Positions 5,297-21,903 of a DNA stretch of 24,896 bases are shown piece after piece. Position numbers and translations under genes: made by a program. Each line of letters begins with the position of its first letter. The stretch's first letter is position 1. Source of the stretch: Candidatus Cloacimonadota bacterium (GTDB lineage: Bacteria; Cloacimonadota; Cloacimonadia; JGIOTU-2); the NCBI GenBank assembly GCA_016932035.1, contig JAFGDR010000003.1:1-24896 (forward strand), given 5' to 3'. A model generated the notes under the pieces. The model was not told the DNA's origin and did not search any database. It was given only the letters and a program-made list of their open reading frames with translations.

Positions 5297-6343
5297 ATGA
5301 TAGTAGTTATAATGGCTGGAGGAATCGGTACTCGATTCTGGCCTTTAAGCACGAAAGAAATGCCCAAGCAGTTTTTGAAAATTCTCGGCGAAGGGTCGAT
5401 GATCCAACAAACAGTGGATCGAATACTGCCGTTAGTAAAACCTGAGAATGTTTATGTTGTCACAAATGAATCACAGATAACGTTGGTTCATGAACATCTG
5501 CCCAAACTTCCTGCTGAAAATATAATTGCTGAACCGATGGGAAGAAATACCGCAGCATGTATTGGACTTTCCGCAGCACTTCTCAAAGACAAATATGATG
5601 AATCCGAAACTATGCTTGTTCTTCCAGCAGATCATTATATCGGAAAACCTGAACGTTTCAGAGAGATTGTTACGTATGCTGATGAATTTGTTAAACAACA
5701 AAAAAAACTACTTACTTTTGGTATAGAACCAACCTATCCTGCAACCGGCTATGGCTACATCGAATTTGGAAAGGAATTAAATAAGGACCCTCTTCCCATT
5801 TACTCTGTTAAGCAATTCAAAGAGAAGCCCAATATCCAAATCGCTGAGCAGTTTATAAACTCAGGTAACTTTGCGTGGAATAGCGGTATGTTCTTATGGG
5901 GCATCGATTCGATACTCAATGCAATACAGATACTCATGCCTGAACTGTTTGATTCATTGAAGCAAATCAAATATATTTGGAAAACAGATAAGAAGGGAGT
6001 AGGTGATCTTTATTCTCGGCTGAAATCAGTACCCATTGATATCGGCATTATGGAGAAAGCTGATAATGCGGCAGTCGTCCCGATCAATATTGATTGGAAT
6101 GATATCGGGAGCTGGGAAGCACTTGATGAGATGAAATTAAAGGATAAAAACGGTAATTGTTTTGAAGTGCCGGTTATGAACATAGAATCTCATAATTCTT
6201 ATGTTTATTCGGACAATTCGCAGAAGAGAATTGCCCTCATCGATGTGGATGATGTGATCATCGTTGAGACGAAAGATGCACTGCTTGTTTGCAGGAAAGA
6301 AAAGTCTCAAGACGTCAAAAAAATCGTGGAAATTTTAAAATAG
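5297..6343 (+). CDS. manC: Mannose-1-phosphate guanylyltransferase
   Basis: The enzyme makes GDP-mannose from GTP and mannose 1-phosphate, a precursor for mannose, fucose and related sugars in surface glycans. The N-terminal nucleotide-binding signature is MAGGIGTRFWPLSTKEMPKQ, followed by MIQQTVDRI, NAACIGLSAA-like ENIIAEPMGRNTAAC and the metal-site region LPADHYI. Sugar-binding segments such as ATGYGYIEFG and FKEKP, the NSGNFAWNSGMFLW block and DWNDIGSWEAL are all present. At 348 residues it is a single-domain ManC/Man1P-GT without the C-terminal cupin isomerase domain of bifunctional AlgA/ManC proteins. AAAAGG upstream of the ATG is a good ribosome binding site. It follows lolA by 15 bases and probably feeds the glycan genes downstream. 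Confidence 0.93.
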   Translation: MIVVIMAGGIGTRFWPLSTKEMPKQFLKILGEGSMIQQTVDRILPLVKPENVYVVTNESQITLVHEHLPKLPAENIIAEPMGRNTAACIGLSAALLKDKYDESETMLVLPADHYIGKPERFREIVTYADEFVKQQKKLLTFGIEPTYPATGYGYIEFGKELNKDPLPIYSVKQFKEKPNIQIAEQFINSGNFAWNSGMFLWGIDSILNAIQILMPELFDSLKQIKYIWKTDKKGVGDLYSRLKSVPIDIGIMEKADNAAVVPINIDWNDIGSWEALDEMKLKDKNGNCFEVPVMNIESHNSYVYSDNSQKRIALIDVDDVIIVETKDALLVCRKEKSQDVKKIVEILK

Positions 6344-6353
6344 AACAAACATT

Positions 6354-6827
6354 ATGAAAAATAAAGAATTAGTCTTTCGTTTCCCACCATTCCTCAGATG
6401 GCTCTCGATAATTGTTGCGATCTTTGCTCTTGTATGGGCACTATATTTTATCACACATGACTTTTACACTGCCGATAAATGGTTTAAAAAAGCAGTTCCT
6501 TTTGTTGTGATATTTCTCGTAGGAAATGTGCTTTATAAAAACCTTTTTACCATTAACTCAATAAAGTTTACTGATTATTCAGTAATTTTCAAACCTCTTT
6601 TACTAAAAAATATTGAAATCCCATTTGGTGACATAAAAAAAATTGAATACAGTATCAAAGCAGGCAAATCAATAATTCTTACGTATGAGCAGGGAGGAAA
6701 ATCCAAAACTCTTTTTATTCCACGTGGAATTGATAAGATCATTATCGTTCTGACACTCATCGCAGAAAATGTTCCGAACATCGAGCTCGATGAATTCATG
6801 AAAACGGTTATTACAACCAACAAATAA
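6354..6827 (+). CDS. Small membrane protein with a PH-like C-terminal domain
   Basis: A 157-residue protein with two predicted membrane helices (about residues 14-32 and 46-65) followed by a soluble stretch of roughly 90 residues. The pattern SIKFTDYSVIFKPLLLKNIEIPFGDIKKIEYS, with a later strand carrying basic residues, recalls the bacterial pleckstrin-homology-like domains (bPH, YcxB-type) that follow two membrane helices. This is a fold-level guess, not a motif match. It starts 10 bases after the guanylyltransferase stop without a clear ribosome binding site, so translation is probably coupled. Function unknown; possibly an accessory envelope protein. Confidence 0.65.
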   Translation: MKNKELVFRFPPFLRWLSIIVAIFALVWALYFITHDFYTADKWFKKAVPFVVIFLVGNVLYKNLFTINSIKFTDYSVIFKPLLLKNIEIPFGDIKKIEYSIKAGKSIILTYEQGGKSKTLFIPRGIDKIIIVLTLIAENVPNIELDEFMKTVITTNK

Positions 6828-6923: not shown

Positions 6924-8780
6924 ATGCAAGCAGTTATTCTGGCAGCAGGAAGAGGTAATAGACTTAAGCCTTTAACGGATGAAGTTCCTAAATCACTCGT
7001 GGAAGTTTGTAACACTTCATTTCTTGAAAACTCATTAAACGCACTCATCATCCATAAAGAAATAAAAAAGGTCATTATCGTTGTTGGGTATAAAAAAGAA
7101 CTCATAATCGATGGTTTTGGAGATCAGTATAAGGGTGTTCAAATCGAATATGTGGATAATCCTAAGTGGAACTCGACCAATAATATTCAGTCACTCTGGC
7201 TTGCTACCGGTCAAATTGATGATGACTTTATACTCATGGAAGGAGACATATATTTTGAGAGTGAGATACTAGATTTTATTTTCCAGAATAGAGATAAAAA
7301 TATTGCGTATCTTTCTAAGTATCATTCAAGTATGTCGGGAACAGTTGTTGAAATTGACGAAAAGGGGAAAAAGATGATGTCAGGTGCAATAATTGAGATG
7401 GATAAAAGGTTTAATACCATTAAAAGACTCATCCCAGGCAGTGAACAGGACATCCATTTTGAATTTTCAGACAAATATAAAACGGTAAATATTTATTATT
7501 TCACAAAGGAATTTTTCTCAGTTTATTTCAAACCAAATCTTGAGATGTATATAAAAACTCATGGCGTGAAAGATTACTACGAACTCGTTCTTGGAACACT
7601 GATCTATCAAAAAACCCCGAACATTTATGGGCATATTGTTGACAGAGACACATGGTTTGAGGTGGATACTGAAGATGACCTTGAGATGGCAACCTATCAT
7701 TTCTCCCGTGGTGAAGATAGGGTTGATTGGCTTTATGGTCTTTATGGAGGACATTGGAGATATGACTGTAAGGATTTCTGCTATCTCTTTAACCTTTACT
7801 TCCCACCGCAGGATTTTTACACGAAACTATCCCATGAACTGCCCATACTGATAAATAACTATCCCTCAGCACATCACAAAATTGCAAGTTTACTTTCTCA
7901 ATGGTATTTTGACGATGGTTTTTCAAAAGACAATTTGATCGTTGGAAATGGGGCATCTGAATTGATTAAGATAATAAATAAAAACCTTATTAATAAGATA
8001 ACGATCCCTGTACCGAGTTTCAATGAGTATGAAAACCTTGAAAACGAAAAAATCAACTATCTCAATTTAAAAGAGGAAGATGATTTTCTGCTCGATGAAG
8101 ATGAATTTATCGATTCTGCAATAAAATCTAAAAGTAACTTTGCGTTGATAATCAATCCCAATAATCCAACATCCACCGTTACACGTAAAGAACAGATAAT
8201 AAAAATATTGAAAGAACTCAATCATCTTGATGGTATTATCATAGATGAATCCTTCATCGATTTTGCTGGTGATAGAGAAAAGTACTCTGTTCAACCTTTT
8301 ATTAATAATTATCCAAATCTCATAATACTGAGAAGTTTAAGCAAAGAATTCGGGATTCCTGGTCTGCGTCTTGGATATTTACTAACTGCAAATCAATCCA
8401 TAAAGAGAAAAGTTAAAAAGGAACTTCCAATATGGAATATTAATTCTATGGCAGAGCGATTTCTGGAATTATTCCCAAGATATCAAAAGCACTATAATCG
8501 ATCCATTGAGAAAATCATAGAGGATCGTGATCAGTTAATTAGTTTGCTCAAGGATGTACCTCATCTTAAGATTATTGATGGAAAGGCAAATTATTTATTC
8601 TGCAAACTACTTGGTGAGATCAAAAGTAGAGAATTAAAAGTTCAACTATATTCTAAGTACAACATTCTTATTAAGGACTGTTCAAACAAGACTGCACTTG
8701 ATGATTCATTTGTAAGAATTTCGATTAGAAAACCAGATGAAAATATCGAGCTCGTGAATGCTTTAAAGGAAATATTATGA
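6924..8780 (+). CDS. Bifunctional cytidylyltransferase fused to a CobD/HisC-like PLP enzyme
   Basis: This 618-residue fusion has two complete domains. Residues 1 to about 255 are a LicC-like nucleotidyltransferase: AAGRGNRLKPLTDEVPKSL (nucleotide loop, Lys23), the TNNI motif at 85-88, metal-site EGD (Asp108) and WFEVDTEDDLEMA (Asp248). Residues about 273-618 are a fold-type-I class I/II aminotransferase: GNGASELI (341-348), NPNNPT (411-416), IIDESFIDFAGD (PLP-ring Asp441) and RSLSKEFGIPGLRLGY with Schiff-base Lys474. The last motifs are most like CobD (threonine-phosphate decarboxylase) and HisC. CobD relatives are known that decarboxylate phosphoserine to phosphoethanolamine. Inference: the protein makes an amino-alcohol phosphate and activates it with CTP. 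AAGGAG lies upstream of the ATG; the stop overlaps the next gene by 4 bases. Confidence 0.85.
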   Translation: MQAVILAAGRGNRLKPLTDEVPKSLVEVCNTSFLENSLNALIIHKEIKKVIIVVGYKKELIIDGFGDQYKGVQIEYVDNPKWNSTNNIQSLWLATGQIDDDFILMEGDIYFESEILDFIFQNRDKNIAYLSKYHSSMSGTVVEIDEKGKKMMSGAIIEMDKRFNTIKRLIPGSEQDIHFEFSDKYKTVNIYYFTKEFFSVYFKPNLEMYIKTHGVKDYYELVLGTLIYQKTPNIYGHIVDRDTWFEVDTEDDLEMATYHFSRGEDRVDWLYGLYGGHWRYDCKDFCYLFNLYFPPQDFYTKLSHELPILINNYPSAHHKIASLLSQWYFDDGFSKDNLIVGNGASELIKIINKNLINKITIPVPSFNEYENLENEKINYLNLKEEDDFLLDEDEFIDSAIKSKSNFALIINPNNPTSTVTRKEQIIKILKELNHLDGIIIDESFIDFAGDREKYSVQPFINNYPNLIILRSLSKEFGIPGLRLGYLLTANQSIKRKVKKELPIWNINSMAERFLELFPRYQKHYNRSIEKIIEDRDQLISLLKDVPHLKIIDGKANYLFCKLLGEIKSRELKVQLYSKYNILIKDCSNKTALDDSFVRISIRKPDENIELVNALKEIL

Positions 8781-9838
8781 CTACATGGGAAAACATCAAG
8801 AATAATGGTGTGTTTGTAGGTGGACATAGAAAGAACGGTACCACCCTCTTGATAGCGCTACTCGATGGACATCCCGATCTCTTCGTCTATCCTTATGAAA
8901 CGCACTTCTGGTATGCTTTCTACCCTGTATATTTCTCTGACAATTTTACATATGAACAAAGGAAACAACGTATTATTGATTATGTATTCCATAGTCTCAG
9001 GCAAACAATTAAAAAATGGATGAGACTTGATGAGAAAGATCTGAAATGTACGTATAATGAACTGAACTCAATCTTTTCTGAAAAGGTGGATAATTCAGAT
9101 AGAGATGTTAAAGATTTTCTTGATGCAATAATCTATAGCGCAAGAGAGATATTACCCGATCCCAACTATGAAACGCACAAATATTGGATAGAAAAATGTA
9201 CCGGATCAGAAATATTTGTAAATGATATATGTAAGATGTATCCTCATGCAAAATATATTCATGTTGTTAGAGATCCAAGAGACAACTGGGCTGTAATAAA
9301 AAAAGGCTGGGATAAGCATTATCATACTCAATACGATTCGATGGATCGACTACTCAGAAGTGTTATAGATAGAAATTACATTTCTCAAAAAATGTCGATA
9401 GACAATACTAGGATCTATGGTGATGATCGCTATCTTGTAATCCGATACGAAGATATGGTTCATGATGCCATGAAAGTTCTCAAGAAAGTCTGTTTGTTTC
9501 TTGATATCAGCTTTGATGAATTATTCACTGAGCCTAGTTTTTGTAAAATCCCATGGGAAGGAAACAGTCTTTCAAACATTCGTTATCGTTCTGTTAGTAA
9601 TGAGAGAGTTGGCATTCACAAGAATTTACCGTCAGAAGAAATCAAGATTTTGGAATATTATTTTAGATCCGAGATGATCCATTACAACTATGAGCCGATT
9701 TATTCTGAGATTCAATGTGTGGATGCAGTCAGAGAACACTATAAGTGGTTTAATGCAAATCAAACTTATTCGATGAAACCCATCAGAACAAATTACGATC
9801 ATCTGGATGATAAGAATAGAACACGTAAACAAAAATAA
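8777..9838 (+). CDS. PAPS-dependent sulfotransferase
   Basis: This 353-residue protein carries the two PAPS-binding elements of the sulfotransferase family. The 5'-phosphosulfate loop is FVGGHRKNGTTLLIALLDGH (residues 13-32), and the 3'-phosphate site is YIHVVRDPRDNW (about 160-171). YLVIRYEDMVHD further on matches the conserved strand-helix before the C-terminal segment. Family members transfer sulfate to hydroxyl or amino groups of sugars, lipids or peptides. The acceptor cannot be read from the sequence, but the glycan-locus context favours a sugar or lipid headgroup. The ATG overlaps the stop of the fusion gene (ATGA), so the two are translationally coupled. No PAPS-synthesis genes are present in the window. 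Some members of this fold act differently, so the reaction is inferred. Confidence 0.85.
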   Translation: MTTWENIKNNGVFVGGHRKNGTTLLIALLDGHPDLFVYPYETHFWYAFYPVYFSDNFTYEQRKQRIIDYVFHSLRQTIKKWMRLDEKDLKCTYNELNSIFSEKVDNSDRDVKDFLDAIIYSAREILPDPNYETHKYWIEKCTGSEIFVNDICKMYPHAKYIHVVRDPRDNWAVIKKGWDKHYHTQYDSMDRLLRSVIDRNYISQKMSIDNTRIYGDDRYLVIRYEDMVHDAMKVLKKVCLFLDISFDELFTEPSFCKIPWEGNSLSNIRYRSVSNERVGIHKNLPSEEIKILEYYFRSEMIHYNYEPIYSEIQCVDAVREHYKWFNANQTYSMKPIRTNYDHLDDKNRTRKQK

Positions 9839-9863: not shown

Positions 9864-10793
9864 ATGTTTATATTAATTACGCCAGCTCATAATGAAATCG
9901 ATCAGGTCGACGGATTGGTTAAATGTATAGAATCCAGTTCATTAAAACCTGATATCTGGTTAATTGTTGATGACTGCAGTGATGATGGAACTGGAGATAA
10001 ATTTAAACAGAATGGCAAAGATTTAGATTTCATGCGAATCCACAGAATCAAAGAATCAAGCGATTACATGGAATTTCATTATTCACATGTACTCATAGAA
10101 GGTATTGCGTCTATTCGATCTGAAATTTCTCAAGCAGATTTCGTTGGGATTCTGGATGCAGATATACGTTTCGGAAAACATTACTGGGAAAAATTAAAAA
10201 ATTTTTTGACCATAAATCCTGACTATGGTATTGTATCCGGTGTGCTTTGTTCGCCTAACAAAAATGGAACCTTCGTAGTTGAGAACTTTCAACGCACCGA
10301 CAATCCCCGAGGGGGTTTAAGATTAATGAGGGGTTCTTGTTTCAGAGAAATTGGTAAAGTTCAAAGGAGCAGAGCACCTGACTCTATCATGAATGTAAAA
10401 TGCCGAATATTAAAGTGGAAAATTTGTATAATAAACGATGTCTATGCAGTAAGTACACGCTCTACGAATGATCGTATTAATATTAAAGCTGGTGCTATCA
10501 GTTTTGGGGTAAGAGCGTGGCATCTTCATCAACCCTTTTGGCAAGTATTCATTAGAACTTGTGCCCTTATCCTAAAGGGGCATTTTAAAAGAGGATTTTA
10601 TTATATTATCGGATTTTATAAAGCATGTTGGCATAGGGAGGAACAATTCCCTGACAAAGAGATACGCCATTATTATCGATATACTCGTACTCTTGAGTGG
10701 ATAAATATGAGTTTGAGAAAAATCTGTAATAAACCATCAAATATTACATTAATTCCAATTATGGAAAAAACCTCAGAAGAGATTTTTATTTAG
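9864..10793 (+). CDS. GT2-family glycosyltransferase
   Basis: A 309-residue GT-A fold protein. The N-terminus ILITPAHNEIDQVDGLVKCI, the nucleotide-binding IVDDCSDDGTGD and the metal-binding GILDADIRF (Asp98-Ala-Asp100) are standard GT2 signatures. The C-terminal third is unusually basic (many Arg/Lys/His) and has only weakly hydrophobic stretches, suggesting peripheral association with the membrane. Donor and acceptor are unknown. There is no clear ribosome binding site directly before the ATG, and 25 bases separate it from the sulfotransferase. A run of CCCCGAGGGGG at about 10306 codes for the DNPRGGLRLMRGS loop, in the place where GT2 enzymes contact the acceptor. Confidence 0.85.
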   Translation: MFILITPAHNEIDQVDGLVKCIESSSLKPDIWLIVDDCSDDGTGDKFKQNGKDLDFMRIHRIKESSDYMEFHYSHVLIEGIASIRSEISQADFVGILDADIRFGKHYWEKLKNFLTINPDYGIVSGVLCSPNKNGTFVVENFQRTDNPRGGLRLMRGSCFREIGKVQRSRAPDSIMNVKCRILKWKICIINDVYAVSTRSTNDRINIKAGAISFGVRAWHLHQPFWQVFIRTCALILKGHFKRGFYYIIGFYKACWHREEQFPDKEIRHYYRYTRTLEWINMSLRKICNKPSNITLIPIMEKTSEEIFI

Positions 10794-10809: not shown

Positions 10810-11475
10810 ATGTTTAAAAAATTTAAAGAAGTTAATGATTTTGCAAAAAAAACGAGTGCACAAAGAGCAATTTATTCAAAATTTATCGTAATACCTGCAG
10901 CCAATTTAATTGTTTCAATGGTTGAAAAGACCAAACTCACTCCCAATGCAGCAACTACTATTTCCCTTCTTTTCGGAATCCTTATGGCTGCTTCAATAGT
11001 ATTCATATCTGGTTATTGGGGAATGTTCATGGCAGCTATTTTTTATAACTTTCGTCTAATGTGGGATGTGGTAGATGGCACTCTTGCAAGAAGAAAAAGT
11101 ATGTCTTCAGAAAAGGGAAGCTGGTGGGATCAACTTGTGGGAAAAATCAGCACTTTATTACTTCTCGCTTCTTTGACCTATCGTGTATACCCAAAAAGTT
11201 TTTGGATTTGTGTTGTTGTATTTTTACTGTTTGTCTATTCCTCTCACAGGCTTATTACTCACACAAAGAAAAAGTACTCAACAAAAAAATTGTTAGACAA
11301 ACATAGCTCATTTATAGCAAATATATATTTTGAAATTTCCCGTTATCATATTTTCGCTGTTCCATTTCTCTTTTTGAACAAGCCACTTTGGGTAATCTAT
11401 GGATTTGGGTTAGTTGAATGTATTTGGGTTGTAAAAACTCTCATTTGTATGTTTGGTAATTTAAATCAGAAATAG
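10810..11475 (+). CDS. CDP-alcohol phosphatidyltransferase family protein lacking the fourth Asp
   Basis: This 221-residue membrane protein belongs to the family that transfers a phosphoalcohol between a CDP carrier and an alcohol, as in phosphatidylinositol-phosphate, phosphatidylserine or phosphatidylethanolamine synthesis. The signature DxxDGxxAR-x8-GxxxDxxxD is readable: Asp86, Asp89-Gly90, Ala93-Arg94, Gly103 and Asp107 are all in place, but position 111, normally the fourth Asp, is Gly (codon GGA, in WWDQLVGK). In characterised enzymes that Asp is the proposed catalytic base. The upstream element LTPNAATTISLLFG and about six membrane helices are normal for the family. AAGGAA precedes the ATG. 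It sits three genes after the cytidylyltransferase fusion, which could supply its CDP-alcohol. It may be an altered or inactive enzyme. Confidence 0.88.
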   Translation: MFKKFKEVNDFAKKTSAQRAIYSKFIVIPAANLIVSMVEKTKLTPNAATTISLLFGILMAASIVFISGYWGMFMAAIFYNFRLMWDVVDGTLARRKSMSSEKGSWWDQLVGKISTLLLLASLTYRVYPKSFWICVVVFLLFVYSSHRLITHTKKKYSTKKLLDKHSSFIANIYFEISRYHIFAVPFLFLNKPLWVIYGFGLVECIWVVKTLICMFGNLNQK

Positions 11476-11480
11476 ATTGT

Positions 11481-12977
11481 ATGTTTTCCAAGGTTCGGAC
11501 TACTCTTAAAGATTCAATAATTTACGGTTTCGGAAATATAACAACAAAAATTGTTGGGCTTGTTTTATTACCTTTATACACTTCTCATATTACGGTCTCT
11601 GATTACGGCATTCTTGGAATTCTGGAAATTACAATACTAATCCTCACTCAAGTACTTATGTTTGGTCAACATCAGGCATATGTGCGGTTTTTCTGTAAAC
11701 AAGACAATACTGAAAATACAAAAGATCCTTTCTTCACATCATTTCTATTTCTCATTCTTATAGGACTTTTACTCAATTTTTTTGGAAATATATTTTTAAA
11801 GAACATTTCAGGCAAGTTTCATGATCCTCAAGTTTTCAAAATATATGTTCAGATATCATTATGGGTCGTTGCATTCCGCTTAATTAACAAATTATGCCTA
11901 TCTTCGTTTAGAGCAAGAGGAAAAGCCCTTCTGTACACAATAAGTAATATCTGTAAATTAACATGCACGTTAGGACTTACTATTTATTTTGTTGCATTTA
12001 TGAAAATAGGAATTAAAGGAATACTCATTTCATATTTAATTGGTGAGGTTCTCCTATTCATCATAATCCTTCCAAGAATTTTAACTTCAATAAAGTTCGA
12101 GTTAGACCCTTTAATGTTGAAAAAAACATTGTACTTTGGATTTCCATTAATCTTTTCTGCTCTTGCCGGTATGCTTCTTAATATGGGAGATAGATATATC
12201 CTTAAAATACTCGGAAATTATAAAGAAGTTGGTTTATATAATCTCGGATACAAAGTAGCGAGTGTGTTGAGTATATTTCTGATACAATCTTTTCAACTTG
12301 GATTACAGCCGATTGCTTACTCTATGTATCAGAAAAAGGGAGACAAAAGATTCTATAGTAAAATGCTGACTTATTCTATGTTCGTTCTAACCTGGGCTGG
12401 TTTAGGTTTGGCGATTATCAGCAAAGAATTGATAAAAACACTGGCGCTGAATCCTGATTATTGGCTCGCATATACAATTGTTCCATATATAATCTTCGGT
12501 CTTCTTTTCAGTGGAGCGAGAACGGTTGTTAACATTGGATTATATATTACTCATAAAACATCTTCAATCGCAATAAATACTGTTATTGCAGCGATTCTGA
12601 ATATATTGCTCAATTTTCTGCTTATTCCAAAATTTCAAATACTCGGTGCTGCATATGCGACGATTATCTCTTTCATCGTGCTCTATATTATGAGTTACAG
12701 AGCAGCACAAAAACATTATAAGGTCCCATACGAAAATAACAAGCTCTTCCTGCTGATTTTGTTATGGATTGCACTTGTCTTTTTATCCTCATTAACCAAT
12801 GGGTTTTCAATTGTTATAAGAATCTTGATAAAAATTTCCGTTTTCATATCTTTCCCCTTTATACTCTATCTATTGAGATTTTTTGAACCAGTTGAGATTA
12901 GAAGAATAGGTGGATCAATCAATAAATGGATGAGCAAAATTCGTCATAAACAAGTGAATAAGGATTATCATGGATAA
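11481..12977 (+). CDS. Wzx-like polysaccharide flippase (MOP/PST family)
   Basis: A 498-residue protein with about 12-14 membrane helices. The N-terminus DSIIYGFGNITTKIVGLVLLPLYTSHITVSDYG is typical of lipid-linked oligosaccharide flippases of the PST family: a first helix, then PLYTxxlxxxdYG. Repeated features of the fold include GIKGILISYLIGE, YFGFPLIFSALAGMLLNMGDRYIL and the C-terminal GAAYATIISFIVLYIMSYRAAQKHY. Such proteins turn undecaprenyl-linked or other polyprenyl-linked glycans to the outer face of the cytoplasmic membrane. It follows the CDP-alcohol transferase by 5 bases and its stop overlaps the YfhO-like gene by 8 bases, so co-expression is very likely. No Wzy-like polymerase is obvious, which argues for a single-unit glycan or a polymerase elsewhere. 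Confidence 0.9.
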   Translation: MFSKVRTTLKDSIIYGFGNITTKIVGLVLLPLYTSHITVSDYGILGILEITILILTQVLMFGQHQAYVRFFCKQDNTENTKDPFFTSFLFLILIGLLLNFFGNIFLKNISGKFHDPQVFKIYVQISLWVVAFRLINKLCLSSFRARGKALLYTISNICKLTCTLGLTIYFVAFMKIGIKGILISYLIGEVLLFIIILPRILTSIKFELDPLMLKKTLYFGFPLIFSALAGMLLNMGDRYILKILGNYKEVGLYNLGYKVASVLSIFLIQSFQLGLQPIAYSMYQKKGDKRFYSKMLTYSMFVLTWAGLGLAIISKELIKTLALNPDYWLAYTIVPYIIFGLLFSGARTVVNIGLYITHKTSSIAINTVIAAILNILLNFLLIPKFQILGAAYATIISFIVLYIMSYRAAQKHYKVPYENNKLFLLILLWIALVFLSSLTNGFSIVIRILIKISVFISFPFILYLLRFFEPVEIRRIGGSINKWMSKIRHKQVNKDYHG

Positions 12978-15447
12978 AAAAAGAAAAAATATCGATATTG
13001 AGAATACTACAAACATCGAGCGTGGTATAAAAATATCCCCAATTCAAAGAAATATATTAATTTTTATCGGAATTTTTATTGTATTATTGATCGTATTCAG
13101 CCCAATGGTTTTCCAGAAACTTCGTCCGGGTGGTGTCGATGTGATCGGTTCGAAAGGTTCAAGTCATCAGATGAAGAAATATCAGGAAGAGAATAATGAA
13201 GAAGTATATTGGAACTCTCCCGTATTTTCAGGAATGCCGTCATATCACAGAAAGAGACCATTAGCATTTTCTTTTGATAAAATCATTCATGACATCTTAG
13301 ATAAAGTTGTCTATGCTTACATCTGGCTCTACCTCATCGGTTTTATCGGTATGTTCTATCTGCTTCGGTTTTTCAAACTCGGATTCTGGGAATCTGTTTT
13401 TGGCGGACTCGGATTTATTTTCATTCCGCACTTTATGTCTTTGTTGAATATCGGGCACTTTGCCAAGTTCCGTCCGATCATGTATATGCCAATTGTTACA
13501 TTCTTCTTCATCAGTTTTCTGAATAAGAAAAACCTGCTCTGGTTATTAGGATTCATCTTCTCATTTTCAATCCAGATCCGCACTCAACACTACCAGATCA
13601 TCTTCTACCAGATCATGATCCTTGTTTTTATTGGGCTTTACTATCTTATCAAAATGCTCGTTGATAAAGAACCAAAGCGTTTCCTCGTGAAAATTCTACT
13701 AGTTATAGGAGGATCTCTTCTGATAACTGCAATGGTTGCTCAACCGCTCTTTGTGACCAATGAATACACACCCTATTCTATCCGTGGTGGTACTGGTGAT
13801 GAAGAATCAACCGGACTTGATATGGATTATGCAACCGGCTGGTCAATGCACCCGACAGAACTTCTGACTTTTATAATGCCAAGATTTTACGGCGGAACGT
13901 CAAACGAACTCTATATGGGCACCAAAGTCGAGCAATGGCACAATAAACGACTTCCAACCTATTGGGGGCACATGCCCTTCAACCAGGCGTATGACTATTT
14001 TAGTGTTGTGCTTCTGATTTTTGCGGTTATCGGACTGATCTTGTGTTTTAAAAAAGGGTATATCAAAGTACTGCTTGGCTTGTTTATCTTGTCTCTGTTT
14101 CTTTCCTTTGGGAGACATTTCTCTGCATTTTACTCTGTCTTTTTCAATTATGTGCCATTCTTTAATAAATTTCGTGTGCCCTCGATGACGATCATCATCA
14201 TGCAGTTCATTATGATCATATGGGCTGCACATGGATTGAAGCAAGTCCTTGAAATCACAAAAAATAATCTGAAAAAGATTCAGAACATTGTCATCGGTAC
14301 TGGGGTTGCACTTATTCTCATTGGTTTGATTGTTATCATTGCCGGTTCATCCTTCCCTCTCGAGAAAGCAGGCGATGCTTCGAGATATGAACCCCAGGTA
14401 CTCGAAATGATCAAACAAGTACGGGTTGAAATGCTTCAAGCTGACGCTCTGCGCATGATCCTCTTTACTCTTGTCACTGCCGGCATTATTCTCCTTTTCA
14501 TCCATAAAAAGATCAAAAAATACATTTTCATCGGACTGGCTATCATTATTCTTCTTGTTGACCTTGTCCCATATGTGAAAAAAGCAGAGGGTGAATTGTA
14601 CGATCCAGTAAAACTCGAACAGCAGCATTTTAAAATGAAGTCAGCAGATAAAGCAATTTTGAAGGACACCTCTTATTATAGGGTTTTTCCGATTACCGAA
14701 AATCCATTCAATAATAATGATTGGTCATACTATCACAACTCTATTGGCGGATATAATGCAGCAAAGTTGAGGATTTATCAAGATATAGTAGAAAATTGTA
14801 TCCTGAGTATTACAGCTACGCAAGTTCCAATAAACTGGAATATCTTAAAAATGCTCAATACCAAATATATTATCTCATCTACACAGCTTCCTCAAGTCAA
14901 TCTCACTCCCTATTATTATGATCAAACCAATAAACTTCTTGTTTATCAGGCGACCTATGATCCCAAACCTGCCTGGTTTGTTGGTGATGTTATTACGATA
15001 ACAGATAGAGATGCTCGTTTTGCTAAAATCAACGATCCCACTTTCGATCCATATGAGACTGCGATCCTTGAAGAACAGTTCGTTCTGCCAATCGAAAAAC
15101 CGGACTCCTCCTATGTTAAGGTTACTCCGTCATTCAATACTATGGAATATGAAATCTATACTGACAAACCTGCATTGTTTGTTGCTTCAGAAATTTATTA
15201 TCCTGCAAAAGGTGGATGGAAAGCGTTTGTTGATGGTAAGGAAGTACCAATATATAAGACGGATCATATCCTTCGCTCGATCTATATAGAAAAGCCCGGT
15301 GAGCATGAAATAGTTTTTGAGTTTAGTCCCCAAACTTTCATAAAGTATTACAAAATTTCACTCATTGCCCATATTTTTGCATTTGTTTGTCTTATAGTAG
15401 TAGCATTACTCACGATTTTCAATAAAAAAAAGAAAGAAAAGAACTGA
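12970..15447 (+). CDS. YfhO-family multi-pass membrane protein
   Basis: An 825-residue protein with roughly a dozen membrane helices, starting with a cytosolic tail and helix at about residues 27-46. A long extracytoplasmic-type loop contains PVFSGMPSYH, and the C-terminal soluble domain (about residues 545-790) ends with the characteristic SEIYYPAKGGWKAFVDGKEV and EKPGEHEIVFEFSPQTF, followed by one last helix. These are hallmarks of the YfhO family, whose Gram-positive members modify teichoic acids with sugars from a lipid carrier. The fold resembles GT-C glycosyltransferases. AAGGA precedes the ATG inside the flippase gene. In this locus it could glycosylate the flipped product on the outer face of the membrane. 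The exact reaction is not known. Confidence 0.85.
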   Translation: MDKKRKNIDIENTTNIERGIKISPIQRNILIFIGIFIVLLIVFSPMVFQKLRPGGVDVIGSKGSSHQMKKYQEENNEEVYWNSPVFSGMPSYHRKRPLAFSFDKIIHDILDKVVYAYIWLYLIGFIGMFYLLRFFKLGFWESVFGGLGFIFIPHFMSLLNIGHFAKFRPIMYMPIVTFFFISFLNKKNLLWLLGFIFSFSIQIRTQHYQIIFYQIMILVFIGLYYLIKMLVDKEPKRFLVKILLVIGGSLLITAMVAQPLFVTNEYTPYSIRGGTGDEESTGLDMDYATGWSMHPTELLTFIMPRFYGGTSNELYMGTKVEQWHNKRLPTYWGHMPFNQAYDYFSVVLLIFAVIGLILCFKKGYIKVLLGLFILSLFLSFGRHFSAFYSVFFNYVPFFNKFRVPSMTIIIMQFIMIIWAAHGLKQVLEITKNNLKKIQNIVIGTGVALILIGLIVIIAGSSFPLEKAGDASRYEPQVLEMIKQVRVEMLQADALRMILFTLVTAGIILLFIHKKIKKYIFIGLAIIILLVDLVPYVKKAEGELYDPVKLEQQHFKMKSADKAILKDTSYYRVFPITENPFNNNDWSYYHNSIGGYNAAKLRIYQDIVENCILSITATQVPINWNILKMLNTKYIISSTQLPQVNLTPYYYDQTNKLLVYQATYDPKPAWFVGDVITITDRDARFAKINDPTFDPYETAILEEQFVLPIEKPDSSYVKVTPSFNTMEYEIYTDKPALFVASEIYYPAKGGWKAFVDGKEVPIYKTDHILRSIYIEKPGEHEIVFEFSPQTFIKYYKISLIAHIFAFVCLIVVALLTIFNKKKKEKN

Positions 15448-16496
15448 TGTCCCATTCTACATCCTGCGTCATTCCTCCTCCTTTGGTTTCAATCATCGTT
15501 CCGGCATATAATCGAGCTGAGGAGATCGATGAATTTCTCTCTTCTTTCGAGAAGCAAACGAAGAAGAATTTTGAAGTGATCGTTGTTGATGATGGCTCAA
15601 CTGATTCAACAAACCAAGTAATTGAAGACCATTCACCAAATCTCGATCTGAGATATTTTTTTCAGCAAAATAAAGGACCTGGTGCAGCACGAAATCTCGG
15701 GATGGAAAAAGCAAAAGGCACTATCTTTGTATTTATTGATTCTGACTGTACTGTTCCGGAAAATTACATCGAAAACCTATCTCAACACCTTAAGCACGAA
15801 GAATTCGATGCCTTTGGTGGACCCGACACCTGTCATGATGATTTCCCACCTTTTCTTAAAGCGATCAACTACTCAATGACCTCATTTATTGGAACAGGCG
15901 GCACACGTGGTTCGAAGGGTAAACAGCTGACAAGATATTATCCGCGCAGTTTTAATATGGGAATCAAACGAGAAGTATTCGATGCGATTGGCGGGATGAA
16001 TTCACTCAGACACGGACAGGACATGGAATTCTCGAATAGGATTTATGATGCAGGATTCAAGGTCACTTATTTTGATGATGTAAAAGTGTACCACAAAAGA
16101 AGAACGAATCTAAAGAAATTTTTTAAGCAGATATTCAACTGGGGGGTTACACGCATCAACCTCGGGAGAATCGATAAAAAAATGCTCAAACCGATCCACT
16201 TTCTGCCGGCGTTTGCTCTACTCGGATATATCGTCTCAGCTATTATTGCATTTTTCTTGCCTGTATTTTTATGGATATTTCTCGGGGAAAGTTCCCTGCT
16301 TGTTCTTATTCTCATCTTTGCATGCATTCAATCGACAATAAAGAATAAATCTTTTCGCGTCGGATTACTCTCAATTGTAACATTGCTTACACAAGTATTT
16401 GGGTATGGTGCAGGACTTATAGTCGGTGTTATTAAATCACTCTTTATTAAAAAAGGAAAGTGGATCACGGGATTTACGAAGAAGTATTATAAATAA
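15447..16496 (+). CDS. GT2 glycosyltransferase with C-terminal membrane helices
   Basis: A 349-residue protein. The GT2 catalytic part comprises VSIIVPAYNRAEEIDEFL, VIVVDDGSTDST, GPGAARNLGMEKAKG and FIDSDCTVP (Asp98-Ser-Asp100), followed by the acceptor-side HGQDMEFSNRI. Two or three membrane helices occupy about residues 248-320, and a basic tail (KKGKWITGFTKKYYK) ends the protein. This layout fits transfer of a sugar to a lipid-linked acceptor on the cytoplasmic face. The start overlaps the YfhO stop by one base (TGATG), indicating coupling. It is the last gene of the run; convergent minus-strand genes follow 45 bases later. Confidence 0.9.
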   Translation: MSHSTSCVIPPPLVSIIVPAYNRAEEIDEFLSSFEKQTKKNFEVIVVDDGSTDSTNQVIEDHSPNLDLRYFFQQNKGPGAARNLGMEKAKGTIFVFIDSDCTVPENYIENLSQHLKHEEFDAFGGPDTCHDDFPPFLKAINYSMTSFIGTGGTRGSKGKQLTRYYPRSFNMGIKREVFDAIGGMNSLRHGQDMEFSNRIYDAGFKVTYFDDVKVYHKRRTNLKKFFKQIFNWGVTRINLGRIDKKMLKPIHFLPAFALLGYIVSAIIAFFLPVFLWIFLGESSLLVLILIFACIQSTIKNKSFRVGLLSIVTLLTQVFGYGAGLIVGVIKSLFIKKGKWITGFTKKYYK

Positions 16497-18620: not shown

Positions 18621-20474
18621 TTATAGAGTTGACAGTATTTCCGCAATTTTTTGTTGCATGCTTTCCAGGTAGGTTTCCCAGTAATGCTCCACTACTTTAT
18701 CAATCATGAAGTACGGAGTAAGCACACAAGCACGCATGAGGCGGAAGCTGTGTACTTTATCCCATTCGGATTTATCAATCCCTAATCGCTTTGCAATGCC
18801 AACAGGGGCATCTCCATAATCAGCATAGGTAAATTCTGTGTGAGAGGTTATGAAATCATTTTTGAACACTGGTCCTGCTACATAAGAACTCAGATCATAA
18901 ATCTGGAAATTGAGCTCATTCATCTTTTTCAAGTCTTTATTGCCTTCAATATTGAATGCAAAATCAACCATATTGAAATCCGGTTTTGTGAGAGTATCCA
19001 TCTTTACTTTTGTTCCGTTTATGTTCAGAATCTTGTTCTTTTGGATATGATTGTAGAATCTCTGTGCTCCTTCGATGCTTGCACCGATGAGTCTGCCATA
19101 ACCTGTTATGTTCAAAGGTAAAACTCTATGGGCAACCCATACCGCTGCTGCGGTTGCTCCAGCTTTAGAACCTTCAAGGATATAGCTTCCAAGTAATGCG
19201 GGAACTTTGGTTCCTTTCTCAAATGTATACGCGGCAAAGTAGGAAATCGCATCGGTCATTCTTCTATCTTTTATCGTGATACCTCCTGCTGCGTAGGGCA
19301 CATAACCCATCTTGTGCGGATCTATGGTAACGGAGTCTGACTCTTCGATCGCTTTGAATGCATTGTACACATCCATGCTTGGCCAATCGATCTCATCCTT
19401 ATTGATAATGCCGTCTTTATGCAATCGGAGTCTCAGTTCATCATACGGGATAAATTTGAAATTCTCATCAAGAAAGATCGAACGTGCATAACCACCATAA
19501 GCAGCATCGATATGCAGATAGAAAGAGATTCCTTTCTTTTCTAGTTCCTTTCTAAGGGCAACGACCTGGTCGACATGATCAACTGCGCCTTCTTCTGTGC
19601 TTCCAACTACTGCAACGACTCCGAGTATGGGTATCTCCTTACTTACCAGATCATCAATCGTCTTTTTAAGCACATCGATATCCATTCTGTAATGTTCATC
19701 AACCTGGATGGAGATCACATTGTTCAATCCGAGTCCGATAATTTCACCGGCTTTTACCCATGAATAATGTTTTGTTTGCGGAACGATCCATTTACCAAGC
19801 TGTTTCTGAACGATGCCTGTTCCTCGAACAGATTTATCTCTGATCTCATCCCAGATATCTTTCACGTTCTCGGATAGATCGAGGATCTGCTCAACAGTCA
19901 TATTTGCAAGCTGCCAGTCTGATTTTCCTTCCACCAGTTTCGGGCGCAATTCTTTGATTGCAAAAGGTATCGACGTAAGATTTCTGGCATACCATATCGC
20001 TTCAAGGTTTGCCACGCTACCGTCTGTACAGATGTGTCCCCATGCTTTTTCGCGGTCATAGCCCATGAGGTCTGCAAAATCATACCCGCATTCTAGTTCC
20101 ATTGGAGACGTTGCAGTGGAAGCTTCATATGCAACGTTGTTCGGATTGTATAACATTGCAGCAATATAGCCGATCATTGCAGGCATCAGAATATCTGCAT
20201 TCATATGTCCGAGATAGCGCGGGGAATGCCAAGGCATTGACGTCTCTTTAAGTTTTGCACACACTGTATCGATCACCTGGTGAACCTTTTCCTCGGTCAT
20301 TCTGAAGTCTTTCTGATCCTTCTCATGCAAGGTGATAACAGGATCATCTTCCGGATGAAAATCTTTTCTCCAGAAAAGATGCTCATTTATCACATCGATG
20401 ACCTTCTCCTTAAAGAATTTACCATTCTCGGATTTAGGTCCTAAAAATAATCCGTTAATATCAATTTTATCCAT
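18621..20474 (-). CDS. tdc: Tyrosine-decarboxylase-like PLP enzyme (group II)
   Basis: This 617-residue enzyme resembles the enterococcal and lactobacillal tyrosine decarboxylases (about 620 residues) from end to end. It has GLFLGPKSENGKFFK, ending PWHSPRYLGHMNADILMP, NNVAYEASTATSPME, VPQTKHYSW (His236), GVVGSTEEGAV-like VVAVVGSTEEGAVD, YLHIDAAYGGYARS (Asp323) and TIDPHKMGYVPYAAGGI with Schiff-base Lys388. These enzymes release CO2 from L-tyrosine (some also L-DOPA or phenylalanine) to give tyramine, consuming a proton. AGGAG precedes the ATG, which lies one base after the antiporter stop. The close pairing supports a decarboxylation/antiport cycle. Substrate is inferred from similarity; glutamate decarboxylase is less likely because those are about 460 residues. 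Confidence 0.88.
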   Translation of the reverse strand: MDKIDINGLFLGPKSENGKFFKEKVIDVINEHLFWRKDFHPEDDPVITLHEKDQKDFRMTEEKVHQVIDTVCAKLKETSMPWHSPRYLGHMNADILMPAMIGYIAAMLYNPNNVAYEASTATSPMELECGYDFADLMGYDREKAWGHICTDGSVANLEAIWYARNLTSIPFAIKELRPKLVEGKSDWQLANMTVEQILDLSENVKDIWDEIRDKSVRGTGIVQKQLGKWIVPQTKHYSWVKAGEIIGLGLNNVISIQVDEHYRMDIDVLKKTIDDLVSKEIPILGVVAVVGSTEEGAVDHVDQVVALRKELEKKGISFYLHIDAAYGGYARSIFLDENFKFIPYDELRLRLHKDGIINKDEIDWPSMDVYNAFKAIEESDSVTIDPHKMGYVPYAAGGITIKDRRMTDAISYFAAYTFEKGTKVPALLGSYILEGSKAGATAAAVWVAHRVLPLNITGYGRLIGASIEGAQRFYNHIQKNKILNINGTKVKMDTLTKPDFNMVDFAFNIEGNKDLKKMNELNFQIYDLSSYVAGPVFKNDFITSHTEFTYADYGDAPVGIAKRLGIDKSEWDKVHSFRLMRACVLTPYFMIDKVVEHYWETYLESMQQKIAEILSTL

Positions 20475-20475
20475 G

Positions 20476-21903
20476 TTATTCTCCTTTATTTTCTTCTTTT
20501 TTGTTTTCTACTGCTTTCCATTCTGGCTTCCTGCATGCATAAATAATGATCGGAAGACTGACGAATACGATCAACCCAAGCGCCATGAAGATCACATAAA
20601 AGGTTGGACTCCCGATCTTAAGATTTGCAGGTGGGAAAAAACTAATCACGATTACAAAAAGCATGGTAAGAAATCCAAGCCCTCCAACGATCCACATGCC
20701 AACATTTCCTCCCGGAACTCGATAGGTTCGTTTTACATTCGGATATTTATATCTCAACTTGATACCAGCAGCAAATAAGAGCAAATACATAACTGCGTAC
20801 AGCACCGTCGTCAGGATAAGCACCATGAAGAAACCTGCATTTACTGCCGGGACAACCACGTAAATAAGTGCAACCAGCGTGATCATGCTTGCCTGGACCA
20901 GCACGAAATGTATTGGCACACCAGCACTATTAGTCTTCTGCCACCATCTGGGCATAAAGCCATTCTTTGCTACCTGGAGCATTGCCGTGGAAGGTCCAAG
21001 CACCCAGGTGCTGAGTTGACCAAAAGCACCGACTGCTGCCATGAATGCCACAACAGGAATAAGCCAATTGACATTTTGCTGATTAAAGAACACTGTAAAT
21101 GTTTGCATTATACCTGATGCCAAGTTAATTGAACTTCTTGGTTCAGCGATCTCTATAGCAAAAGCGCCGAAGATATTCATCAGCATAATAAGCACTGCCG
21201 CAACGAGCATGGCAAGAGGATAGTTCTTCTGGGGATTACTCACTTCATTAGCATGCACCGAAGATACCTCCATTCCTGAGTAAAGAAAGATTATCCCCAC
21301 AAAGAATGCAAGGTTTCCGATGCTTGAAAAATTTGGAAATAATTGTCCCCACGAAAACTTCGGAAGCTGAATGGGGTTTTTCCCAAGAAAGTATGCTAAT
21401 CCAAATCCGAGAATCAATATGAAAGGAATAAGCACACCTACCAGGAAGCCAACCGAGCTGATCAAACTCCCGGACTTCAATCCCTTTAAGTTGAAGATCG
21501 TAGCCACCCAATAAATAGCAATTGTGACAACTGCTATATAGATATTATTATTTGCAAGCTCCGGCTTAAAAATAAAAGCGATCATCGCTGCGATGAACGA
21601 TCCGATCATGACCATGCCGAAGAACATCTGCACCCAGAGCATCCATGAGCCGATGAAAGCAGCCCTGTCACCAAAAGCAAGCTTTATCCATTTGTAAACA
21701 CCACCTGCAGATGGCCATCCGGTTGCCAGCTCAGCCGAGATAAGCGCAGTTGGGATAAGAAAGATGATCGCAGCCACAAGCATGTAGAATATCTGCGCCC
21801 AGCCAGTTTCTGCCAGCATAGGTAAATTCCTTATACTCATAATGAACGCAAGCGTTATCATCACAAGTTTAAAAAGATTTAATTTGTGCGTGCTTTTTTC
21901 CAT
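20476..21903 (-). CDS. APC-family amino-acid/amine antiporter (TyrP/GadC-like)
   Basis: A 475-residue protein with about 12 membrane helices. The N-terminus KLNLFKLVMITLAFIMSIRNLPMLAETG is the start typical of the glutamate:GABA and tyrosine:tyramine branch of the APC superfamily. Later ELATGWPSAGGVYKWIKLAFG, SGMEVSSVHANEVSNPQKNYP and TYRVPGG also match. Family members exchange an external amino acid for the internal decarboxylated amine. Paired with the decarboxylase, the most likely exchange is tyrosine for tyramine. The C-terminus (EWKAVENKKEENKGE) is a short charged tail. AAGGAG lies upstream of the ATG. It is first in its operon, the reverse of the decarboxylase-permease order I recall from Enterococcus. 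Confidence 0.87.
   Translation of the reverse strand: MEKSTHKLNLFKLVMITLAFIMSIRNLPMLAETGWAQIFYMLVAAIIFLIPTALISAELATGWPSAGGVYKWIKLAFGDRAAFIGSWMLWVQMFFGMVMIGSFIAAMIAFIFKPELANNNIYIAVVTIAIYWVATIFNLKGLKSGSLISSVGFLVGVLIPFILILGFGLAYFLGKNPIQLPKFSWGQLFPNFSSIGNLAFFVGIIFLYSGMEVSSVHANEVSNPQKNYPLAMLVAAVLIMLMNIFGAFAIEIAEPRSSINLASGIMQTFTVFFNQQNVNWLIPVVAFMAAVGAFGQLSTWVLGPSTAMLQVAKNGFMPRWWQKTNSAGVPIHFVLVQASMITLVALIYVVVPAVNAGFFMVLILTTVLYAVMYLLLFAAGIKLRYKYPNVKRTYRVPGGNVGMWIVGGLGFLTMLFVIVISFFPPANLKIGSPTFYVIFMALGLIVFVSLPIIIYACRKPEWKAVENKKEENKGE

Follow-up and report, generated by a model that had tools for sequence, protein, structure and literature searches.

The protein encoded at positions 6924..8780 on the forward strand of the window (the whole 24,896-nucleotide stretch of Candidatus Cloacimonadota DNA analyzed here) is probably an L-serine-O-phosphate decarboxylase fused to a CTP:phosphoethanolamine cytidylyltransferase, supplying CDP-ethanolamine for glycan decoration. 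In the mechanism that we propose, the C-terminal PLP domain would bind O-phospho-L-serine as an external aldimine, displacing Lys474, and release CO2 to yield phosphoethanolamine, which the N-terminal cytidylyltransferase (NT) domain would then join to CMP from CTP, generating CDP-ethanolamine and pyrophosphate. Ethanolamine phosphate would next be moved to a lipid-linked glycan, built and flipped by the same operon, through a transferase that is here probably the product of the gene at 10810-11475 and elsewhere often LicD. We infer the serine phosphate substrate, its decarboxylation, the CDP product, the glycan acceptor and any channelling between the two domains. The decarboxylase reading is based on the clade that the PLP domain forms with SMUL_1544 and a probable Cj1436 homologue, on its CobD-type motifs, on structural ranking and on the absence of rival pathways. 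Whereas the component activities are of known kinds, the fusion itself is apparently undescribed, no description of it having been found in the open full-text literature searched.

Domain architecture and relatives of the fusion protein

The open reading frame encodes 618 amino acids from an ATG start with no internal stop codon, and its division into an N-terminal phospho-amine cytidylyltransferase domain and a C-terminal PLP decarboxylase-like domain is based on the ORF call, Pfam and an AlphaFold2 model. Pfam recognized NTP_transferase at residues 3-126 (E 6.7e-13) and the class I/II family Aminotran_1_2 (PF00155) at residues 312-613 (E 4.6e-30), and the model of the 618-residue protein, calculated from an alignment of 38 fusions, displayed a confident two-domain fold (mean pLDDT 91.5). 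The initial annotation had described a LicC-like nucleotidyltransferase fused to a CobD/HisC-like PLP domain; this was borne out, and all the motifs quoted in its support were found.

The PLP domain (residues 268-618; 7725..8777, forward strand) has CobD (1lc7), 3ftb and SMUL_1544 (6oux) as its closest solved structures. By sequence, its best match in the PDB was SMUL_1544 (6oux; E 7e-41), followed by 3ftb and then by HisC and CobD. In the comparison of the predicted structure with CobD and HisC that had been suggested at the outset, the CobD group came first (Z 36.5-38.4) and the HisC group reached at most 35.9, a gap of 1-3 units that supports the placing of the domain but does not prove it. 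In a maximum-likelihood tree, SMUL_1544 and its identical orthologue shared one clade (100/98) with the fusions and with a stand-alone protein from locus L170, and outside of this clade fell Salmonella CobD and 3ftb; E. coli and Medicago HisC, the HisC-like proteins of the phylum itself and the HisC-like neighbor in L170 lay beyond a 95/91 branch. A tree built with fewer, other anchors agreed, the fusion/SMUL_1544 clade being recovered at 100/99. The fusions make up several branches around SMUL_1544 within this shared clade, and the stand-alone L170 protein is termed a probable Cj1436 homologue only on account of its flanking HisC-like gene and HAD gene. SMUL_1544 reportedly decarboxylates serine phosphate, as described by Keller and colleagues in 2016. 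Cj1436 converts serine phosphate to ethanolamine phosphate by decarboxylation (PMC12409886).

The residues of the domain are in line with this placing. The codon for the PLP Schiff-base lysine, Lys474, lies at 8343..8345 (forward strand, as are the other parts of the fusion and the operon genes given below), and lysine occupies this site in 85 of 85 aligned full-length fusions. A CobD/SMUL_1544-type W-x-x-N motif, W504-N-I-N507 (8433..8444), has its tryptophan and asparagine conserved in all 85, HisC references having tyrosine, and R598-x-x-x-R602 (8715..8729) corresponds to CobD Arg337/Arg341 where the HisC references read R-x-x-x-G. Lys584 (8673..8675), a lysine in 69 of the 85 fusions, stands at the position of CobD Arg323, an arginine shared by CobD, SMUL_1544 and HisC, and details of the substrate may differ accordingly from those of the relatives. 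The CobD relationship proposed by the initial annotation is thus supported by tree, motifs and structural ranking alike, and no grouping with HisC was seen; fold and clade by themselves do not settle whether the chemistry is that of a decarboxylase or of a transaminase. SMUL_1544 from Sulfurospirillum multivorans and Cj1436 from Campylobacter jejuni, which share the clade with the fusion (Cj1436 through its probable homologue; the W-x-x-N and R-x-x-x-R motifs having been compared with SMUL_1544), are single-domain proteins serving norcobamide or capsule glucuronamide synthesis, whereas the window protein is fused to a cytidylyltransferase and has Lys584 in place of arginine.

The NT domain (residues 1-264; 6924..7715) has PntC (6pd1, E 1.3e-14) and LicC (1jyk, E 2.8e-12) as its nearest solved chains. 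Glu106 (7239..7241) aligns with the amine-contacting Glu104 of Tde-PntC and with Asp105 of LicC, whereas Glu220 (7581..7583), part of a YYE motif, lies opposite Tde-PntC Glu196 and LicC Asp192, an equivalence that is drawn from the spacing to the following W-x-E-x-D motif and from the multiple alignment, as the pairwise alignment stopped short of that site. In Tde-PntC, Glu104 and Glu196 grip the primary amine of aminoethylphosphonate; LicC, which accepts choline, carries the smaller aspartate at both sites (PMC6697681). Because PntC-type glutamates are found at both amine contacts in 85 of 85 fusions, the Glu106/Glu220 pair would fit phosphoethanolamine or another small primary amine. Stand-alone NT proteins of the phylum, both in genome G090 (L010, 692-3115) and in relatives, share the TNN, E and YYE residues with the fusion; the gene for one of them in G090 overlaps a sulfotransferase gene and adjoins a CDP-alcohol transferase (CDP-OH) gene, and this trio recurs without a PLP domain.

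PntC-AEPT (Tde1415; 6pd1/6pd2) has the same design as the fusion, a LicC-like cytidylyltransferase with two glutamate amine contacts followed by a PLP domain. Its PLP domain, however, is a class V aminoethylphosphonate transaminase encoded in PepM clusters, whereas that of the fusion is of the class I/II CobD type and mostly occurs without PepM, and the sequence match of 6pd1 to the fusion runs through the NT domain only. The analogy to PntC drawn in the initial annotation therefore holds for the NT domain and fails for the PLP halves, which belong to different families. As to LicC, which operates with LicD, its NT domain is homologous to that of the fusion and LicD is often encoded nearby, but LicC has aspartate at both amine contacts and receives phosphocholine from a separate kinase, whereas the fusion appears to synthesize the phospho-amine that it activates.

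The surface-glycan operon and genome-wide searches

The fusion is the first gene of a tight co-directional run finishing at 16496. Upstream of it lie a mannose-1-phosphate guanylyltransferase-like gene (5297..6343) and a gene for a 157-residue protein without Pfam family (6354..6827), both shared with the equivalent locus of another genome of the same family (L178, discussed below), the former as a synteny anchor at 63% identity and the latter in the same place at 53%. Downstream, the first gene, whose start overlaps the fusion's last codon region, encodes a sulfotransferase family protein (Sulfotransfer_3; 8777..9838), and after it come a family 2 glycosyltransferase (9864..10793; 58% identity over 173 residues with its positional counterpart in L178), a CDP-alcohol phosphatidyltransferase family protein (PF01066; 10810..11475), a polysaccharide flippase assigned by Pfam (Polysacc_synt; 11481..12977), a large membrane protein of 825 residues without Pfam family (12970..15447) that has homologues near fusions in L102 and L110, and a second family 2 glycosyltransferase, again assigned by Pfam, which ends the run (15447..16496). 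By its gene content the fusion locus serves a surface glycan, and it includes a potential CDP-alcohol user. Elsewhere in the window (18621-20474 and 20476-21903), inspection by eye pointed to a second PLP decarboxylase, of the glutamate/tyrosine type, next to a gene resembling amino-acid antiporters; the pair has no bearing on the fusion.

A CDP-alcohol transferase, which lends support to the reading of the initial annotation, is encoded three genes downstream of the fusion and is a candidate CDP-amino-alcohol user. The protein retains the D-x2-D-G-x2-A-R and G-x3-D parts of its motif and has glycine in place of the expected last aspartate (11140-11142); given this missing residue, it is not certain that the protein serves as the acceptor enzyme. 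The corresponding protein encoded immediately after the Nanoarchaeota fusion (L046) has histidine at the same site, and two other CDP-OH proteins of the window's genome have the complete motif. A viral scan with the window's CDP-OH protein returned no relatives.

Among 124 genomes of the phylum, the full fusion was found in two, namely the window's genome, the assembly of which is 95% complete, and G018. In neither was a histidinol dehydrogenase, a phosphatidylserine decarboxylase (PSD) or a PepM scoring over the cut-off found, the best PepM match in the window's genome being a 257-residue frame at 22.7 bits vs a cut-off of 31.5, and no CobD over cut-off was found in the window's genome. The genome check for pepM put forward in the initial annotation as a possible refutation of its reading, to which PepM would have been adverse, thus came out in favor of that reading. 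Likewise, 20 of 27 other fusion-bearing genomes contained no member of the PEP mutase family over cut-off; as this family also includes lyases, the genomes with a true PepM are possibly fewer than 7 of those 27. The bypass of PSD in lipid synthesis, which had also been proposed, was not upheld: no PSD was found in 114 of the 124 phylum genomes, only two genomes have the fusion, and the gene belongs to a polysaccharide operon. Since PSD was found in only 10 phylum genomes, the lack of a PSD match in the window's genome is hardly informative on the fusion, and a general replacement of PSD in lipid synthesis was rejected, absence of PSD being common in the phylum without the fusion.

In the same-family genome G118, the equivalent locus (L178, G118:C21, 2-8436) harbors a decayed N-terminal remnant of the fusion, about 112 residues long and interrupted by in-frame stops, together with a replacement cassette. 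The site is flanked, like that of the window, by LolA, ManC, the 157-residue protein gene and a glycosyltransferase (46-63% identity). The cassette comprises a LicD, a cytidylyltransferase-PepM fusion that scores over the PEP mutase cut-off and bears the motif EDKVGLKKNS, a phosphonopyruvate decarboxylase (Ppd) over its own cut-off, and an iron alcohol dehydrogenase to which PsrA is nearest, at a score below the PsrA model cut-off. From its gene content, this cassette looks like a CMP-hydroxyethylphosphonate pathway. One two-carbon phospho group thus seems to have been swapped for another at a single glycan locus, in one case, and this replacement supports the view that the fusion makes a head group.

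Distribution of the fusion and its neighbors

At least 572 relatives were confirmed in a scan that used the fusion alignment, and from these 80 loci with full-length fusions were retained. Full-length homologues with the same domain order occur in metagenome-assembled genomes of Thermoplasmata (62% identity) and Nanoarchaeota (56%) and in Aenigmatarchaeota (47%), and others of 33-47% identity occur in many other phyla, as well as on annotated plasmids; the bacterial bearers include Bacteroidota, Bacillota, Spirochaetota, Actinomycetota and Chloroflexota, among others. Because same-order full-length homologues recur in this manner, the fusion is genuine, and a chance or assembly join was excluded as its origin. 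In the tree, the nearest partner of the window's protein is the Thermoplasmata homologue (99/93), and the second copy in the phylum, that of G018, lies far away, which suggests horizontal transfer of the fusion.

Across bacteria and some archaea, relatives of the fusion belong to gene clusters for surface sugars, and LicD is encoded within six genes of the fusion in 38 of 85 loci. The 95 directly downstream proteins that were scanned included 17 Octopine_DH, 12 LicD, 10 OCD_Mu_crystall, 7 CDP-OH_P_transf and 5 methyltransferase proteins, a count by purpose-built HMMs that is too low for CDP-OH proteins, the one immediately following the Nanoarchaeota fusion (L046) having been missed, then seen by eye and confirmed by Pfam. 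On a Gloeothece plasmid, genes for a methyltransferase and a LicD come after the fusion, an order suggestive of CDP-ethanolamine being converted to CDP-choline prior to transfer. At L070, L074 and some 30 other fusion loci, an octopine/nopaline dehydrogenase or ornithine-cyclodeaminase-like gene directly follows the fusion, and these opine-type genes suggest reductive N-alkylation of the amino-alcohol. N-carboxyethyl-ethanolamine phosphate occurs in O-antigens. Open reviews list phosphoethanolamine and N-acetyl-phosphoethanolamine in Proteus O-antigens, and in these same reviews there is no mention of N-carboxyethyl-ethanolamine phosphate in O-antigens.

Several loci displayed further features. 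The end of the Fusobacterium fusion is overlapped by a gene for a DUF1015 protein (L035, 10820-11869) carrying an ADGHHR motif, which we take to resemble that of ParB-like serine kinases; such a protein could provide phosphoserine. A fusion-like protein of Sinorhizobium fredii NGR234 (pNGR234a; L137, 5536-7392) reads SLGAI at the site of the Schiff-base lysine, and its PLP domain is probably inactive. On Priestia megaterium pBM700 (L037, 4534-12638), the fusion and a CDP-OH transferase have two ATP-grasp genes and a second DXP reductoisomerase as neighbors, in what looks like a natural-product cluster. In two Campylobacterales-order genomes, the gene directly before the fusion (L172, 2784-3773; L171, 4898-5872) encodes an adenylylsulfate-kinase-like protein joined to a GNAT domain, the GNAT domain being weakly similar to aminoalkylphosphonate N-acetyltransferase.

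Alternative substrates and implications

The substrate and chemistry assigned to the PLP domain compete with four other readings, of which the decarboxylation of L-threonine phosphate, leading to CDP-aminopropanol, keeps the chemistry but takes a larger substrate. Salmonella CobD (1lc5-1lc8) performs this reaction and has its fold (Z 38) and motifs in common with the fusion, which is matched by the CobD model TIGR01140; the score of 169.4 bits is nonetheless far below the cut-off of 290.55, CobD has Arg323 where the fusion has Lys584, and the fusions cluster with serine-phosphate enzymes, away from Salmonella CobD. With PntC-type glutamates accompanying a small amine pocket, and few glycans with aminopropanol phosphate being known to us, threonine phosphate is an unlikely substrate. 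We similarly consider it improbable that the domain is an aminotransferase, acting either on dihydroxyacetone phosphate to give serinol phosphate (as Cj1437) or on phosphonoacetaldehyde to give aminoethylphosphonate (as PntC-AEPT), with CDP-serinol or CMP-AEP as the product of the NT domain. The PLP fold is one of aminotransferases, PntC-AEPT is a similarly built fusion, and in one Campylobacterales-order genome PepM and Ppd lie upstream of the fusion with no aminoethylphosphonate transaminase recognized within 12 kb upstream. Yet the fusion separates from both HisC and the L170 HisC-like protein and is devoid of their motifs, and the results for PepM in the window's genome and in the 20 of 27 others also speak against it. 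A Treponema contig (L065), moreover, encodes PepM, Ppd and a canonical PntC-AEPT after the fusion, such that the fusion would not be needed there as a transaminase; because both coexist on one contig, these two separate NT-PLP fusions probably use two substrates.

A phosphonate route, in which the PLP domain would decarboxylate phosphonoalanine to 2-aminoethylphosphonate for conversion to CMP-AEP by the NT domain, is suggested by rhizobia, where the NT and PLP domains have genes of their own that adjoin aepX and an aminotransferase gene, together with a CDP-OH gene in two of three cases. These split PLP proteins nest within the fusion clade and may decarboxylate phosphonoalanine, and with such relatives and a few fusions adjoining PepM the family is not bound to serine phosphate alone. 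For the window's protein, however, this route is very unlikely, neither its genome nor G018 having a PepM over cut-off, and the rhizobial proteins have arginine at the site where most fusions have Lys584. That the PLP domain might be the organism's own HisC can scarcely be entertained: the fusion is the closest HisC/CobD-like protein of the genome and hisC is its top NCBIfam name, yet it scores 172 bits vs a cut-off of 276.6, falls outside the HisC clade and occurs in two phylum genomes in neither of which a histidinol dehydrogenase was found. A role in histidine biosynthesis was rejected on the latter ground, as far as a 95% complete assembly allows.

The preferred reading, a serine-phosphate decarboxylase coupled to a phosphoethanolamine cytidylyltransferase, may extend well beyond this phylum. 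We tentatively envision, at somewhat less than even confidence, a widespread soluble route from phosphoserine to CDP-ethanolamine that would supply the surface glycans of many bacterial phyla as well as of archaea of the Thermoplasmata and Nanoarchaeota type. This route would form an exchangeable cassette, as in the swap for a CMP-hydroxyethylphosphonate pathway, and opine-type dehydrogenases and methyltransferases would lead from it to N-carboxyalkyl-ethanolamine or choline phosphate. The sources of phosphoethanolamine, phosphocholine and related zwitterionic groups for surface glycans are poorly known in bacteria devoid of the Lic pathway or of phosphatidylethanolamine donors. If the proposal is true, a single marker protein, uniting the making of the head group with its activation, would predict such decorations from genomes, with predictions reaching gut Bacteroidota, oral Fusobacterium and Treponema, Providencia and DPANN archaea, and the adjoining opine dehydrogenases and methyltransferases would hint at how the substituents are diversified.
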